A stretch of 64,000 nt of DNA from Geobacteraceae bacterium (GTDB lineage Bacteria > Desulfobacterota > Desulfuromonadia > Geobacterales > Pseudopelobacteraceae), in assembly GCA_025355965.1 (NCBI GenBank), contig JANXYR010000067.1, positions 1-64,000 on the forward strand. Direction: 5' to 3'. Positions 26,874 through 33,255 of the stretch are shown piece after piece (within the stretch, counting starts at the first letter, position 1; every line of letters begins with the position of its first letter). The notes under the pieces were generated by a model. The model was not told the DNA's origin, ran no database searches, and was given only the letters and a program-made list of their open reading frames with translations. The position numbers and the translations under genes are program-made.

Positions 26874-27621
26874 TGTGTCCAAAAAAAAGGAAGCCATGAG
26901 TATTTTGTGATGCATTTATCCGGAATCAGATAGTTTTTGGCTATCAGAGTATCACCCTTGCGAATGCGTCGCCCCTCCCATGTGGTCAACCCCATGTTCG
27001 GTCGGCTGCTGTCGGCTCGTGATTGAATCAGCTCTGCGGCGGTCAAGCCATGGATTGCGTAGTGTACCTTGTTCTGCACCGTGGCAAAAAAATCCTGGGT
27101 AAGCGGGTGGTTGGGATCATAGTCAACGCTGGTGGCATAAATGTCGGTTATTTTCTGGTAAAAACGGCGCTCGCTGGTGCGGATGTCTTGCAGACGTTTT
27201 GTCAGCTCGTCAAAATAATCGTGACGTTTACCGGGATTTTTCAGACGTTCATCATCCAGCACAAAGCCCTTGATGATATACTCTTTCAGCTTGTCGCTTG
27301 CCCATTGGCGAAAACGTACGCCAGCCTGGCTTCTGACCCGGTAGCCAAGCGCCAGCACCATATCCAGATTGTAATGGGCTACGTCGTACTGTTTGCCATC
27401 AGCGGCAGTTGTTCGGTAAAACCGAACAACTGAATTTTCATCCAGTTCGCCATCGTCAAAAATAGGCTTGATATGTTCGCTGATTGTTCCCTTGGCCTTG
27501 CCGAACAGTTCGCCAAGCTGTTTCTGTGACAGCCAGAGAGTTTCCGCCTCCAGTATAACATCTATTTGGTGCGGCCATCCTTGCTATGGTAAATCAGGAA
27601 TTGGTTGGTTTCGTTTTTCAT
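26861..27621 (-). pseudogene. RhuM-family gene, frameshifted and 3'-truncated
   Basis: The reading MKNETNQFLIYHSKDGRTK (27621-27565) fits a RhuM N-terminus but meets a TAG at 27564-27562. The next frame continues at once with IDVILEAETLWLSQKQLG, then AKGTISEHI, YRTTAADGKQYDVAHYNLD and FRQWASDKLKEYIIKGFVLDDERLKNP in separate blocks. One missing A in the AAA run at 27567-27565 explains the break. The C-terminus departs from the family after KGDTLIAKNYL and stops within 20 residues, so about a quarter of the usual length is lost. The 5' end overlaps the TIR-ATPase gene by 38 bases. RhuM proteins are common in defence and mobile regions; the function is poorly known. Confidence 0.8.
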
Positions 27622-30600
27622 AGGACGGGACTCCAGTTTCTGGATTTACGACCTTATCTAATGCGCTTTTCAACTGCCCATCCCCAGGATAATCAGCGAT
27701 CCCCTTCTTTAGTAGAGAAACCGCCTCCTCCCGCCGACCCTCAACAACAAGCAAATCAGCACTCCTCATAATCAACGATGCCAGGTTTCCCATCTTAGGA
27801 CCGGTCAGAGCGCTATTGATAAGCTTGATGGCATCCTGGTTCAGTCCAACACTGGACATCAGGTCAGCGCAGGTCTGATAAAGCATGGCCCTGCCAGGCG
27901 TTCCCGGCAGTCGGATGGCTTTTTTCAACAAATCAATGCCTTCATCAGGACGTCCAGCCTCACCCAGCAGTTTGGCGCACTTTTGATAGATCAAGCCCTT
28001 GTTAGTCAGCCCCGGCGAATTGATACCCTTTTTCATCAGGGTAATAGCATCTTCACGACGTCTTGCCTTTACCATCAGCTCTGAACATGCTTTGTAGAGA
28101 AAATCCAGATGATGCGGGTCATTCCCGGCAATTCTTTCCTCAAGAATTTCTATGGCTTCATCCAACCGGCCTTGTCGCGCTGTCAGATCAGCGCACATTT
28201 GAGCCAATAAGTTTTGCTCCTTCATGTGCGGCACCTGGAGGCCAAGTTTCAACACATCTACAGCATCCTCAAGGTATTTGGCATGAAAAAGCAACTTTGC
28301 GCATTTTAGATAGATGGACGACTCGCTTTTCAAGCGAGGATTCGACAGAGCTTTTTTGAGAAATTTGACGCCAACTTCCGTGTTGTCGATTTTCTCCATA
28401 ATGTCAGCGAAGTAATGATAGAGCGGGAGTGGATCTTTTACAGTATTGGAAGCAAGACCTCGCTCTAACAAGGCAGCCGCTTCGTCGATACGATTGTGTT
28501 TCACCAGCAATTCGGCACAGTAGCGATACATCATTTTCGGATCGAGAACGCGGGAATCAGATACTGCTTCTCTGAGAAAACAGATGGCTTCTTCGTCTTC
28601 CCCTTTCTTCACCATTAATTCGGCAATCAGCAGGTAGATGGAAAAGAGCTTTGTCATTCCGGGGAGATCAAGCCCTTTTCGGAGAAATGCGATAGCTTCA
28701 TCCACGCGGTTAAGTCTCGTCATAAGACCGGCGCAGTGCATATAAACCGTACCCAGTTCCTGAATATTCGGTATGTCGATACCCTTCCTTAGAATCGTGA
28801 TTGCATCATCATATCTCCCCGCTTGTTCCATGGATCTTGCGCACAAGCTGATGAGCGATGAAACGCAGGCCATGCCCGGCGTATCAATAGCCTGCTTCAG
28901 CAGCTTTTCAGCATCGTCGAACCTGTCATCTTTCATGAGAATATGGGCGCAACGATGATAGATCGTAAAAGCGTTGCTGCCGCTCCCCAGAAACTTGATC
29001 GCCTCTTTTTGCGCCCTCAACATCGCGTTGACCCCATTGAGGTTGTATTCAAGTTCGATCAAGAGCAGCCAGACAGCATAGTAGGAATGCGGTCCTGTGG
29101 CCCTACGCACATGAAAAAGCGCCTTACGGTAATCATCCCCGGTATTTCGATGTTTCAAGCACAATGCCAGGTGATACTCCAAGCCTTTGGGTCTTTTCAT
29201 TTCCGGTAATGCGGAAATCAGGGCGATGTGTTCCTCTAATGTTTCTAGATTGTCGGGGATTTTCGATTGGGCGGGCCTTGGCAAGAGTGAAAGAGCAAAT
29301 TTCGTAAGTTTATCACTGGCCAGATACAATTCGTCCATGCGAGCGGATTCGAAAAGATGATGCCGCAATTCAGCGTAGGAAGAGGTCAGTTTCTGTGATT
29401 CCCGCAGTTGGACGTTTTTGAAATATTTGAAATAACTGTCTGCCGCAAGGCTGTGCGCTTGCCGCCATTCATCTTTGTCTTCACGAAGGCGAGTCACACT
29501 GATTTCCCTTGCCAGCGGATGCAGAGTTTCGCCGTTGTTGGTCGTTTCCAGCAAGAATCTGTTTATGAGTTGTTTGCGCAATGATTGCGGAGAGGTAGAA
29601 ACGGTGGTGATTTCCAGCGAAGCATCTTTATTGAATGGACGACGGTATACCGCCAGCCAGCGCATGAATTTCAGTAATTCGCCTTCCATACAGGAAAGGG
29701 TACGTTCGATCAGTTCGCGTTCAAAATCTTCAACCAGCTCAGGATTGAGGTTGACATCCCCAGGGTTGAAGAGATCGGGAGCTAAGGAAATCAGCTCTTC
29801 TAGAGAAAAATATTTAAGACTCTCCACCATCGTTTTCAGTGCCCGTGGGTTGCCACCCAAACGATGTCCAATCTCTTTCAGCCTTTCTTTGGGGATCTTT
29901 TCTGACAAATTTTTCGACGCAAGATGCGTTTGCAGAAAATCTGCGGCTTCAAAATCCGTAAGCCCTTTGAGTTCGCTGGATAACGCTTTTTCGCACCATC
30001 GCGCATTTTTTATGGAACGATTGCTGATGAGTAAAAGCCTACCTGCGGGACGATGTGAATTATTGAGCCGTTCAACAAGATACTGCCAATCTTTCTGCGG
30101 CAACGCATCTTTATCACCTAAGAGACGCTGAAATTCATCTACGACAACCAAAACCTGTTCTCTTCGGAGAAATCTGAGCAAGGCATCGAAGAGATTGCCG
30201 CCAGCACCTTTATCAATCTCTTGCATCAAATCATGGATACCCTCGTAATCAAGCGCCAATGCGAGGTCAGTGAGCAAGTCAAGGGATGGATCTTGTGATT
30301 CAAGCTGCGGCTCGACAGGATCAATGCAACGAGTTGTCTGTGCAGCAATTTCAGAAGCCAACTGAGTTTTTCCACATCCCGGAAATCCTTGTAAAAGGGC
30401 GACAGCAGGTCCCTTGACTAGCCATTCGGAAACAAAATATTTTAGGAGTTCAGCCCGCTGATGACCATAAAAATTGCTGCTTGCACTATTATTATTGTTG
30501 TTAGTTGTGGCCTCAACTTCGTGATTGTCGATAACGGCATTGCCCGAAACATCATTTTTAACAACCGATTCTGATTTAAAGTCGGGCAAGGGCGGCTCTG

Positions 30601-31042
30601 ACATGGGTTTTCTACGTGAGACGTTGACCCCGTCGAGCAGCTTCTCTACCAAATATTGTCTTCGTTCATGCCTATCTAGTGGCTGGGATTCCAAGAAATC
30701 GATATAGACCAAGGGCTTGAAAAAACCTTTTAGTTCACAGTGCTCGACCCGAACCGGAATCAGTAGCCGTTTTTCTCCAGTAGGGTCTTTGGCAAATGCC
30801 TGTGCCCATTCAGGTTGTGTATATAGGGATGCAAGAAAATGAGGAGATAAAACAAATATCGTGCGCTCACATATTTCCGCAGCTTTTTGCATCTCAAGTA
30901 TGAAGTTACTTCCAGGTCCCCAGTCCCATAGCTGGATCATTATCTGGTAACCGGCCTCTTCAAGATGCCATGCGATCCACTCAGCCCATTGCTTATCGTG
31001 GTCGTTGTAACTGACAAAGAAGTCTTTTTTCTCGTTGGTCAT
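27584..31042 (-). CDS. TIR domain-STAND ATPase-TPR protein, probable anti-phage NLR-like effector
   Basis: A 1152-residue three-part protein. Residues 1 to about 138 form a TIR domain (KDFFVSYNDHDKQWAEWI; Glu78 in TQPEWAQAF is the likely NADase glutamate). An Asn-rich linker (about 178-190) follows. The STAND/NB-ARC-like ATPase spans about 190-520, with P-loop GFPGCGKT at 219-226, Walker B VLVVVDEF at 297-304, GGNPRALK near 396 and a winged-helix HPLAREI near 508. About eleven TPR-like repeats of 36-37 residues (CAxLMxxxGRxDEAIxxLKKGI pattern) fill about 690-1130 and would sense a ligand. Known relatives act in abortive infection by depleting NAD; that role is inferred. The ATG at 31042 has AAGGCG six bases upstream and lies ten bases after a KilA-N-like remnant. 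Confidence 0.88.
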   Translation of the reverse strand: MTNEKKDFFVSYNDHDKQWAEWIAWHLEEAGYQIMIQLWDWGPGSNFILEMQKAAEICERTIFVLSPHFLASLYTQPEWAQAFAKDPTGEKRLLIPVRVEHCELKGFFKPLVYIDFLESQPLDRHERRQYLVEKLLDGVNVSRRKPMSEPPLPDFKSESVVKNDVSGNAVIDNHEVEATTNNNNNSASSNFYGHQRAELLKYFVSEWLVKGPAVALLQGFPGCGKTQLASEIAAQTTRCIDPVEPQLESQDPSLDLLTDLALALDYEGIHDLMQEIDKGAGGNLFDALLRFLRREQVLVVVDEFQRLLGDKDALPQKDWQYLVERLNNSHRPAGRLLLISNRSIKNARWCEKALSSELKGLTDFEAADFLQTHLASKNLSEKIPKERLKEIGHRLGGNPRALKTMVESLKYFSLEELISLAPDLFNPGDVNLNPELVEDFERELIERTLSCMEGELLKFMRWLAVYRRPFNKDASLEITTVSTSPQSLRKQLINRFLLETTNNGETLHPLAREISVTRLREDKDEWRQAHSLAADSYFKYFKNVQLRESQKLTSSYAELRHHLFESARMDELYLASDKLTKFALSLLPRPAQSKIPDNLETLEEHIALISALPEMKRPKGLEYHLALCLKHRNTGDDYRKALFHVRRATGPHSYYAVWLLLIELEYNLNGVNAMLRAQKEAIKFLGSGSNAFTIYHRCAHILMKDDRFDDAEKLLKQAIDTPGMACVSSLISLCARSMEQAGRYDDAITILRKGIDIPNIQELGTVYMHCAGLMTRLNRVDEAIAFLRKGLDLPGMTKLFSIYLLIAELMVKKGEDEEAICFLREAVSDSRVLDPKMMYRYCAELLVKHNRIDEAAALLERGLASNTVKDPLPLYHYFADIMEKIDNTEVGVKFLKKALSNPRLKSESSIYLKCAKLLFHAKYLEDAVDVLKLGLQVPHMKEQNLLAQMCADLTARQGRLDEAIEILEERIAGNDPHHLDFLYKACSELMVKARRREDAITLMKKGINSPGLTNKGLIYQKCAKLLGEAGRPDEGIDLLKKAIRLPGTPGRAMLYQTCADLMSSVGLNQDAIKLINSALTGPKMGNLASLIMRSADLLVVEGRREEAVSLLKKGIADYPGDGQLKSALDKVVNPETGVPSYEKRNQPIPDLP

Positions 31043-31052
31043 AATTAACGCC

Positions 31053-31439
31053 TTATATGATTGGCCTCTTGCGCAGAATCTGTTCGGAGTTCCGGGTATC
31101 ATCCGTCAGCAGCTTCATCTGCTGAATGGCTATCCTGTTCAATTTCAGCAACCGCTCCGGTTGTAACATACCTTCTGATATAAACAGGGCGTTCAGGTTC
31201 TCCAGATTTGAAAGACAGACCAGCTGGGAGACGTTGGCATAGTCCCGGATTTTGCCTTTTTTGTCAGGGTTGGCGTCACGCCATGTCTTGGCGCACTGGC
31301 CGAACAGCGCCATGTTCAACACATCGCCGGGAGTTCCGGGGACAGTATATTTAACTCCCCAGTTTTCGAACCGATTCTCCCGCGCCAGCTGCTGACCCAG
31401 CTCGTACAACAAAGACACACAATTTTGTCCACGAAACAC
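31053..31439 (-). pseudogene. KilA-N/phage-antirepressor-type protein, C-terminal remnant
   Basis: An open frame of up to 128 codons whose main part (TPGDVLNMALFGQCAKTWR, then RDYANVSQLVCLSNLENLNAL and ERLLKLNRIAIQQMK) matches the C-terminal region of KilA-N-domain proteins. The N-terminal DNA-binding domain is missing. The first codons are read from the inverted-repeat arm of the adjacent GxxExxY cassette. The homologous part starts at about 31410, so the gene appears cut by the cassette. Its stop lies ten bases before the TIR-ATPase start, so the two genes were probably one operon. It could also be expressed as a short protein from a GTG at 31439. Confidence 0.6.
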
Positions 31440-31455
31440 ACGAAAAGCACGAAAG
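31425..31455. repeat. Left inverted-repeat arm of the GxxExxY cassette
   Basis: Starts TTGTCCACGAAA and contains three CACGAAA-type units. It is the near-inverse of 31841-31869 and ends four bases before the stop codon of the GxxExxY gene. Confidence 0.8.
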
Positions 31456-31459
31456 TAAA

Positions 31460-31840
31460 TCAGAGGATAATCCTTTCAACAATCGCCTTTGGGTGACTTC
31501 CGAAATTTGCCAGCAAACCAACCTTCATTCCGGTAGACTTCAGATAATTTAGCACCTGAGAACGATGCTCCCCGGTTAGTTCACGCAGTGCTTTCAGTTC
31601 AACAATAATCTTGTCAAAACAGATCAGATCCGCTTTGTAGAACTGCTTTAATTCTTCCCCTTTGTAATACAGTTTGAGTTCCTGCTGGGGAGTAAAAGGG
31701 ATCCCCCGTAATCGAAGTTCTTTTTCAAGGCATTCTTGATAGACCGCTTCAAGAAATCCACAGCCAATTTCACGATACACCTCAAATACGGCTCCCTGAA
31801 TAGCGTAACATTCATCCCTGAATATGATTTTGTCTTCCAT
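31460..31840 (-). CDS. GxxExxY protein (PD-(D/E)XK-like)
   Basis: A 126-residue protein of the GxxExxY family, named for GCGFLEAVYQECLEKEL (about residues 26-42). The later KADLICFDKIIVELKAL supplies the D...ExK pattern of the PD-(D/E)XK nuclease superfamily (Asp near 70, ELK near 81). The biological role is not established. The gene is enclosed by inverted repeats. The arm next to the ATG supplies AAAGGC as the apparent Shine-Dalgarno, so the gene and the repeats seem to travel as one unit. Length is normal and the frame is intact. Confidence 0.85.
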   Translation of the reverse strand: MEDKIIFRDECYAIQGAVFEVYREIGCGFLEAVYQECLEKELRLRGIPFTPQQELKLYYKGEELKQFYKADLICFDKIIVELKALRELTGEHRSQVLNYLKSTGMKVGLLANFGSHPKAIVERIIL

Positions 31841-31869
31841 TTCGTGCCTTTCGTGCTTTTCGTGGACAA
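31841..31869. repeat. Right inverted-repeat arm of the GxxExxY cassette
   Basis: TTCGTG units ending TTTTCGTGGACAA, abutting the start codon of the GxxExxY gene at 31840. Beyond it, up to 32060, I see no gene; a stretch near 31925-31950 resembles degenerate ACCGCAGAG/GCAAAG dispersed repeats. Confidence 0.8.
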
Positions 31870-32059
31870 CAGTTTTTCCACTGCTTTCAAGATCCTGATC
31901 TTACCCTCACGTTTTTGCCTTCCTTTGCGATACTCTGCGGTGATAAAAGATTTACGAATCGATTCAGCGGGTGATATCTGATTATTTGCTAATTGGCGTA
32001 CACCAAGTTTCGCGTTGCACAGTACACGCTTTCGGCCAATAGCGCCAGACAGGAATTAC

Positions 32060-32100
32060 AAAAAAGCCACTCTCATCAAATATTGACTGAGAATGGCTTT
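32060..32100 (-). terminator. Rho-independent terminator of the sugar-nucleotide operon
   Basis: A 12-bp stem with one mismatch (32064-32075 with 32088-32099; AAGCCA core), followed on the minus strand by a T-run. It lies about 65 bases past the guanylyltransferase stop. Confidence 0.88.
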
Positions 32101-32166
32101 TGTATGGAGATATATGATCCCGCTATGGATCGGAATGCGGTACAAACTTCAGGGTACTGTTATTAA

Positions 32167-33255
32167 TTACAGATACTCCGTCATCCCGGCAACACCCAAC
32201 TCTTCAACCACCTTTTTCACATCCTGGCAGCACTCGCGGTCACAGACCAGAATCGCATCCGGCGTGGAGACAACGACGATATTATGGACACCGACCGTGG
32301 CAACCATCCTCCCGTCGGCGTAAATGATGCAGCCGGATGATTCGACAGCGATATGCCCGGCGGCATTGACACAAACTGTCCCATTAACGTCAGGCTCAAT
32401 CACCTCCGGCAGTGCGCTCCAACTCCCTACATCACTCCACCCCATCTCAACCGGCACCATCTGAACCCGGGAAGATTTTTCCATAACTCCATAATCAATA
32501 GAAATGCTTTCAATATCCTGGTAAAGAGCCGCAATCTGCCCCTTCAGAACTGTTTGCCCCTCTGCTTCTATGGTTGTTTTCAACTGTAGGAGCTTATTGT
32601 GCAGAGCTGGCATAAATATCTGCATTTCCGCCAGAATCGTATCGGCACTCCAGATAAACATGCCGCTGTTCCAGAAGTAGTTACCCTCCTCCAGATAGCG
32701 CAGTGCATCAGCCAACGGTGGTTTTTCAACAAAACGCTTTACCGGGAACGGCCCCTGTGAAGCTCCATCATTGAGTGCATCCATTCCGGCCTCAATGTAA
32801 CCGTATCCGGTCTCCGGACGTGACGGCAAAATACCAAGTGTTACAAGAAAACCGTTGCTCGCTGCTTCTCCCGCAAAGGTCAGCGTATTGCGAAGCATAC
32901 TTTCGTTTTTAATGAAATGATCTGCGGGGAGAACGACCATAATTCCGGACGGGTCGTGGGCAGCAATAAGTGCAGCAGCCAAGCCGATGGCCGGAGCGGT
33001 ATTACGGGCAGCAGGCTCGGCTATGACGTCAATCGGCACTGAGCCGTAGGGTTGCATCTGGCGTTCGGTTTCGACCGCCTGCAGGTGGTTTGTTATAATA
33101 AGGATCCGCTTCGGATGAAGCGGCAGTACACGCTCAACCGTTCTCTGCAGCATACTTTGATCCCCGGTAATAGAGATCAACTGCTTTGGCCTGGCAGTCC
33201 GTGAAAGCGGCCAAAATCTGGTTCCTGATCCACCGGCAAGAATAACGATATACAT
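32167..33255 (-). CDS. manC: Mannose-1-phosphate guanylyltransferase
   Basis: A 362-residue nucleotidyltransferase making GDP-mannose from GTP and mannose 1-phosphate. The N-terminus has LAGGSGTRFWPLSRTARPKQ, the nucleotide-binding and catalytic motif. Further blocks are VVLPADHFI, FVEKPPLADALRYL and VPVEMGWSDVGSWSAL. It lacks the C-terminal isomerase domain of bifunctional enzymes. A separate cupin protein for that step is encoded two genes upstream. It is the last gene of the rfbB-to-manC cluster. Confidence 0.93.
   Translation of the reverse strand: MYIVILAGGSGTRFWPLSRTARPKQLISITGDQSMLQRTVERVLPLHPKRILIITNHLQAVETERQMQPYGSVPIDVIAEPAARNTAPAIGLAAALIAAHDPSGIMVVLPADHFIKNESMLRNTLTFAGEAASNGFLVTLGILPSRPETGYGYIEAGMDALNDGASQGPFPVKRFVEKPPLADALRYLEEGNYFWNSGMFIWSADTILAEMQIFMPALHNKLLQLKTTIEAEGQTVLKGQIAALYQDIESISIDYGVMEKSSRVQMVPVEMGWSDVGSWSALPEVIEPDVNGTVCVNAAGHIAVESSGCIIYADGRMVATVGVHNIVVVSTPDAILVCDRECCQDVKKVVEELGVAGMTEYL

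Follow-up and report, generated by a model that had tools for sequence, protein, structure and literature searches.

A small gene of the GxxExxY family, closely framed by two inverted arms, lies in the window (the whole 64,000 nt stretch of Geobacteraceae DNA that was analysed). Comparison with related sequences gives good support to the view that this block, one gene and two arms in about 445 bp, is inherited and moves as a unit over evolutionary time. Its relatives sit between operon genes of many bacteria, a pattern that suggests a mobile element of very small size and of a kind that has received little study. The explanation we favour, with a probability of a little over one half (roughly 55%), is that a PD-(D/E)XK nuclease-like gene set in arrays of a short unit enters the gaps of operons, and that its protein acts on the arrays. 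What is known is the protein family (GxxExxY/PDDEXK_3); within the open-access literature searched, the arm framing and the movement of the block appear to be new.

The gene and its inverted arms

The block consists of three features:

31460–31840, minus strand: GxxExxY / PDDEXK_3 gene, 126 aa
31425–31454: stop-side inverted arm, TTGTC followed by three CACGAAA units at 9 bp spacing, read on the plus strand
31840–31869: start-side inverted arm, including AAAGG and overlapping the first base of the start codon

The arms have the 30 nt layout CACGAAA NN CACGAAA NN CACGAAA and are complementary at 27 of 30 positions (90%). They resemble each other because they share a 7 bp unit in three repeats, and the three mismatches all fall within the 2 bp linkers. 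The block has an inverted-repeat score of 22.5, whereas 2000 dinucleotide shuffles reach at most 14.5, which confirms the framing described in the first-pass annotation of this DNA. The fit around the gene is as tight as was claimed there: the stop-side arm ends 4–5 bases from the stop codon, and the start-side arm includes the A of the ATG. The same annotation had the arm supply the ribosome site, which holds for the window copy (AAAGG, 6 nt upstream of the ATG) but not for several other CACGAAA copies, which start upstream of the arm. With up to two mismatches, the arm motif occurs at only these two places in the 86 contigs of the same genome. A reading of the arm as a protein motif was discarded; three frames are read in different copies (MNHEKHERHEK, LTTKDTKSTK, REPRNTRNTRK).

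The window protein passes the curated cut-offs of both TIGR04256 (139.8 bits, cut-off 35) and PDDEXK_3 (PF13366; 141.3 bits, cut-off 22), and so belongs to the GxxExxY family of the PD-(D/E)XK fold superfamily; it is a clear member, but these models name the protein only. D..ExK is the catalytic pattern of PD-(D/E)XK nucleases, and the alignment indicates that it is kept in the window protein as D71, E81 and K83, which are invariant among 10 aligned relatives, as are G28, E31 and Y34. The dN/dS of window-type genes from four genomes, one gene having an in-frame stop, is 0.064–0.086 (about 0.07), indicating that the protein is under purifying selection. A structure model from 10 sequences had a pLDDT of 63, and its predicted helix–strand order fits the nuclease fold with middling confidence. 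The top Foldseek matches included lambda-type exonuclease, Cas4, tRNA splicing endonuclease and Holliday-junction resolvase; no E-value fell below 1e-3 (best PDB structural match, 3e-3). No family among the PADLOC models matched the window protein, and one relative (L168) gave a single weak, partial match to PDC-M36A (E-value 3.6e-4, 46 residues). Searches of PHROG families and of PDB sequence relatives returned nothing useful for the window protein.

A truncated gene (31053–31439) adjoins the element and has homologues in 23 of 76 genomes of the family, its own included; many of these are about 290 aa long, and they mostly match only from about residue 25 onward. It is presumed to be a KilA-N gene; a Pfam search gave no match. 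Next door (27584–31102) is a large TIR-AAA-TPR protein, which PADLOC's TIR defence models match weakly. The 25–48 bp directly outside the stop-side arm (31377–31424) are common to the window copy and the copies of two other genomes (G022 and G017), and this shared stretch may either belong to the element or be a target that these copies have in common. Rfam covariance models, searched against 30900–32400 up to an E-value of 1, gave no match (no 23S rRNA, group I or II intron, or other known RNA).

Copies in other genomes and arms without a gene

In the genus, TIGR04256 matches were found in 32 of 39 genomes (0–7 per genome, some split or with stops) and the CACGAAA arm motif, allowing one mismatch, in 20 of 39; a reversed control pattern gave four matches in two genomes. 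Relatives of the window gene in G035 and G022 have arms at the window's offsets. The G027 relative has the start-side arm, the other arm being replaced by a run of gene-free pairs. The G014 relative has extra arms, the G017 relative is in two pieces cut by contig ends, and a copy in G020 has arms with changed units (CGCGAAA). The proteins of G022, G035 and G027 are 87–91% identical to that of the window copy, with arms conserved and flanks classed as unlike.

A scan of genome contigs for two arms gave 33 stretches, 12 with a GxxExxY reading frame between the arms and 21 without. One of the 12 is cut short, and two are the G022 and G035 copies again, the latter with an in-frame stop. Their hosts are Methylomonas, Nitrosomonas, Desulfobulbus and Desulfogranum, plus MAGs of Nitrospira, Bacteroidia, Sumerlaeota, Verrucomicrobia, Riflebacteria and Enterobacterales; the assignment of individual contigs is uncertain, since several copies are MAG-derived. 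Flanks lying 20–420 bp outside the arms were compared in 369 pairs (protein identity at least 0.6) from 80 arm-bearing genes. In 289 of these pairs both flanks were unlike and in 29 both were alike; 22 had one side alike, and 29 were not testable. Close relatives are thus mostly found in unrelated loci with their arms in place, in sister genomes as well as in several phyla, which bears out the earlier proposal that gene and repeats move together and that the unit should recur at unrelated loci.

Carriage by plasmids or phages was considered and set aside, with almost nothing found in phage, plasmid or viral contig sets. With the L168 protein as tblastn query there was no match in 50,697 phage records (E-value limit 1e-5) and one distant match in 72,556 plasmid records (limit 1e-20), and a scan of viral contigs gave one relative among 43 pattern-matching stretches. 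The block of one locus (L159), sought in E. coli genomes, gave no match there.

In all, 131 GxxExxY genes were examined for any inverted repeat across the gene, with a partner arm score of at least 16 counted as positive. Arms were found in 80 of the 131: in 27 of 31 CACGAAA-type genes and 53 of 100 others. Of these 100, 12 lie at one genus locus, where 10 are positive; among the remaining 88 there are 43 positives. These counts indicate that the layout is common in the GxxExxY family, beyond the window copy. Three of the four CACGAAA-type misses scored 15 and one gave nothing. After swapping of partners, 1.8% stayed positive among the other genes and 65% among the CACGAAA-type genes, which share one unit. 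Scores of at least 18 were reached by 12 of 481 non-GxxExxY ORFs of these loci; by our reading, eight of the 12 are probably leftover GxxExxY copies; of the rest, one appears to neighbour a four-helix-bundle gene and another to fall within an arm array.

Positive arms measure about 31 nt. A clear unit period was present in 20 of the 27 CACGAAA-type positives, always of 9 nt, and in 22 of the 53 others, where it was 8 nt in 11 cases, 9 nt in 5 and 10 nt in 6; the unit sequences of these other types include CACGGAG, ACGCGGAT, CACAGATT, CGCGAATTAA and more. At 60% identity the proteins form 29 clusters, 17 holding at least one arm-positive gene and 12 having no arms at threshold. The window's own genome has three GxxExxY genes, each with a separate arm type, the third being weak (score 16.5, 144 bp from the stop). 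Among the 80 positives, more similar proteins have more similar arms: a score of at least 14 is reached in 89% of the 46 pairs above 0.8 identity and in about 1% of pairs below 0.5. The comparisons show arm sequence to differ by protein clade and both arms of one gene to match, with arms and protein diversifying together. At one locus (L315, genome G221) two GxxExxY genes, 89% alike, stand side by side with inverted arms on each.

Arms also occur alone. The first-pass annotation had counted arms scattered without the gene against joint movement, and gene-free arm pairs are indeed present in many genomes. It had counted genes without arms likewise: most of the GxxExxY genes examined lack CACGAAA arms, yet the 53 others noted above have arms of their own, and at one junction (G022) there are arms with no gene. 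Among 101 Methylomonadaceae genomes the arm motif was found in 34, in up to 56 copies (reversed control, 0). CACGAAA-type genes were found in 11 of the 101, all among the 34 motif-bearing genomes, and their proteins are 62–74% identical to that of the Methylomonas koyamae copy (L158, itself aside). Several arm-rich genomes have no CACGAAA-type gene, for example G233 (56 arms) and G200 (50 arms). Extra arm copies are commoner where the gene is present, both in Methylomonadaceae (p 0.004) and for the CACGAAA type in the genus (p 0.013), kinship being uncorrected. At the genus locus, 16 filled genomes have 2–32 other arm matches and 20 unfilled ones 0–6 (p 3e-7, kinship uncorrected, among the matches listed); here G014 is entered as filled though its match spans two contigs, and three genomes are left out, namely G022, which has arms but no gene, G003, whose flanks are split between two contigs, and G026, which gave no match. 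In independent tree pairs the same trend was seen in 3–5 of 5 and never the opposite (p 0.06 at best). Short gene-free arm pairs form tandem runs at three loci (L178, L187 and L049).

A gene-free MITE of about 165 bp (L253–L270; G022 and relatives, mostly G022) has CCTA..TAGG ends and CACGAAA arms inside, and 6 of 12 scored copies have exact 5 bp duplications, a figure that 0 of 5000 shuffles reach. It is a real MITE, rejected as the same element since its ends lie outside the arms. Because this duplicating MITE carries them inside, another enzyme can move CACGAAA arms, and the window block might likewise be a passenger, with an unrelated transposase acting in trans on the arms as ends and the GxxExxY gene as cargo. 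We consider this unlikely but a serious contender. The abundance of gene-free arm pairs agrees with it, as do the TIGR02436 four-helix-bundle genes described below, which have the same layout with mostly 7 nt units. Three observations argue against it. Arm sequence tracks the protein clade, and a general transposase would have no need of such a correspondence. Arm pairs with CC..GG ends, gene-bearing and gene-free, have no target duplication of at least 4 bp in any of 81 cases, and one has 3 bp. No other recurrent gene was seen between the CACGAAA arms of the 21 stretches without GxxExxY, examined by eye at one spacing.

Movement in trans had been proposed earlier on the grounds that no transposase is present, but need not follow: the best candidate is the nuclease-like protein that the element itself encodes. 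Our best guess is that this protein would drive the movement. In the favoured explanation, the block would enter the gap between a stop codon and the ribosome site of the next gene, in sense orientation, with expression by way of the host's transcript. The protein would bind the unit arrays, perhaps helped by a host factor, and cut or join DNA at them, both in its own copy and in gene-free arm pairs at other places. Several observations weigh against this explanation: the missing duplications at CC..GG ends, the lack of arms at threshold in 47 of the 100 other genes and in 12 of the 29 clusters, the stretch shared outside the stop-side arm, the arm-rich genomes with no CACGAAA-type gene, the non-significant trend in independent tree pairs, the MITE with arms inside it, and the middling structure model.

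Insertion sites and the nature of the arms

In the copies compared outside the genus, the block is found directly after a stop codon, about 10–30 bp ahead of the next start. Elements with arms and with both neighbours within 150 bp, counted without the repeated genus-locus copies, run in the same direction as both neighbours in 36 of 37 cases and never against both; for window ORFs of at least 100 aa with close neighbours, the figure is 15 of 26 co-directional with both. The position of the window copy is less tidy, in a decayed gap with the upstream gene about 300 bp away.

Sense orientation within operons would also fit an element acting at the RNA level, similar to the intervening sequences (IVS) of 23S rRNA. 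In such an element, base pairing between the transcribed arms would let RNase III remove the block from the operon mRNA. Size and layout resemble the 428 nt IVS of Coxiella 23S rRNA (PMC4990558), and four-helix-bundle genes annotated as IVS proteins share the layout. This alternative appears improbable in the light of the linkers. Their match across the arms is 0.46 in gene-bearing CACGAAA pairs (n = 19) against 0.39 when shuffled, with 676 of 5000 shuffles as high, and 0.42 against 0.42 in gene-free pairs (n = 16). Sense-strand mismatches compatible with G-U pairing number 98 against 79, no significant excess (p 0.18). A selected RNA or cruciform stem is therefore unsupported for the CACGAAA arms, the one arm type that these tests cover. 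Because the unit is kept and linker pairing is not, these arms look like candidate arrays of binding sites, and we favour putative arrays over a selected stem.

Sites without the element, which the first-pass annotation had proposed to look for, were found at two junctions. In Methylomonas koyamae (L158) the block sits between hsdR and hsdM. These two genes adjoin with short gaps and no block in three loci of the same family (L223, L224 and L225), in E. coli (L251) and on a Kovacikia plasmid (L252), while a further locus of the family (L222) has about 760 bp of other DNA at the junction. The hsdR and hsdM names come from annotation of the E. coli and Kovacikia relatives, and the intergenic letters are too diverged for the exact element ends to be placed. 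Names of flanking genes such as hsdS, type III methylase and kds are our assignments from translations.

Several copies lie in what we take to be restriction operons. This would suit a non-mobile gene, in which an accessory operon gene, tied for example to restriction-modification, has arms that serve as its operator and is spread by operon transfer and loss. Purifying selection on the protein and a genus locus that may be largely vertical are also consistent with this, but we give it very little credence. Near-identical blocks have unlike flanks, arms without the gene are scattered in genomes, and another copy (L189) has the same downstream hsdM as L158 with a different upstream gene. The neighbours at further loci, such as L166 and L180, are also presumably unlike defence genes.

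The second junction lies in an operon of the genus, between genes that we take to encode a mutase and an epimerase. Among the matches listed (at most 10 scored candidates per genome), 38 genomes have a match, 29 have the locus with both flanks and could be aligned, and of these 15 are filled and 14 unfilled; among the unfilled, G005 may retain a decayed remnant, and in several there are about 45 bp of other DNA. The arms here score a median of 26 with their own partner against 15 with partners swapped within the locus, the own partner being best in only 7 of 15. On a tree of the flanks the pattern takes seven changes, five forced by supported branches, and shuffled labels reach as few in 21–32 of 500. 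On the protein tree of these elements there are four changes and only one is forced, so that one old arrival followed by losses is possible, and can explain much of the pattern at this junction. G022, one of the 14 unfilled genomes, has arms with a gene-free interior here (L381), and similar interior letters are found in the gene-bearing L387.

Relation to known elements

No description of the arm framing or movement of GxxExxY genes was found in the open-access literature, and six typical unit strings were absent from the literature searched. The passage of one paper that touches on GxxExxY/PF13366 does not concern arms (PMC8934634).

REP and REPIN elements are associated with RAYT genes, which encode Y1 tyrosine enzymes. 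They are alike in having one gene between short inverted repeats and many gene-free pairs. The window element differs in its PD-(D/E)XK protein, its arrays of 7–10 nt units, its operon sites and its spread across phyla; no Y1 transposase lies between the repeats, the only gene between the arms being PDDEXK_3. MITEs and transposons with terminal inverted repeats are alike in their inverted ends, which window-type elements also possess, their gene-free versions and their scattered copies. The window-type block differs from them: no transposase of a known kind lies between its arms, and its CC..GG ends lack duplications.

The four-helix-bundle family is known from 23S rRNA intervening sequences (PMC4990558, PMC10053308), which resemble the GxxExxY element in size and in having a small ORF (S23/four-helix-bundle) between inverted ends. 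The GxxExxY element differs in its protein family, in having relatives in protein operons and in its unpaired CACGAAA linkers. Among TIGR02436 four-helix-bundle genes of the genus (L332–L355), 11 of 23 score at least 16, with 7 nt units in 9 of the 11. Where the neighbours are within 300 bp, 14 of 17 are co-directional with both and three with the upstream gene only.

A wider reading may be put forward tentatively, at rather less than even odds. GxxExxY genes would be the core of widespread, self-moving minimal elements, each a PD-(D/E)XK nuclease of about 125 aa with an inverted unit array. Protein and unit would diversify into specificity groups, each group moving gene-free arm pairs too. 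Four-helix-bundle (S23/IVS-type) genes would form a parallel class with 7 nt units, and the rRNA IVS would then be one branch of a general operon-gap element. If the favoured explanation is right, a large uncharacterised protein family would gain a role, some short dispersed repeats of bacterial genomes would be explained, and known mobile elements would be joined by one of about 445 bp that can lodge in an operon while leaving it intact. The many arm–protein pairs would then lend themselves to work on how small nucleases select DNA sites.

Multicopy intergenic sequences of Geobacter have been reported as palindrome-based families and direct repeats of 6–42 nt (PMC2996986, PMC2700814), in passages that make no link to GxxExxY genes, and gene-free arms may be among them. 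Heptamer direct repeats (TAACTGA) of Beggiatoaceae and cyanobacteria, likened here by their description only, are tandem and intergenic, lie near start codons and are patchy across phyla (PMC4679880); they are direct rather than inverted around a gene.
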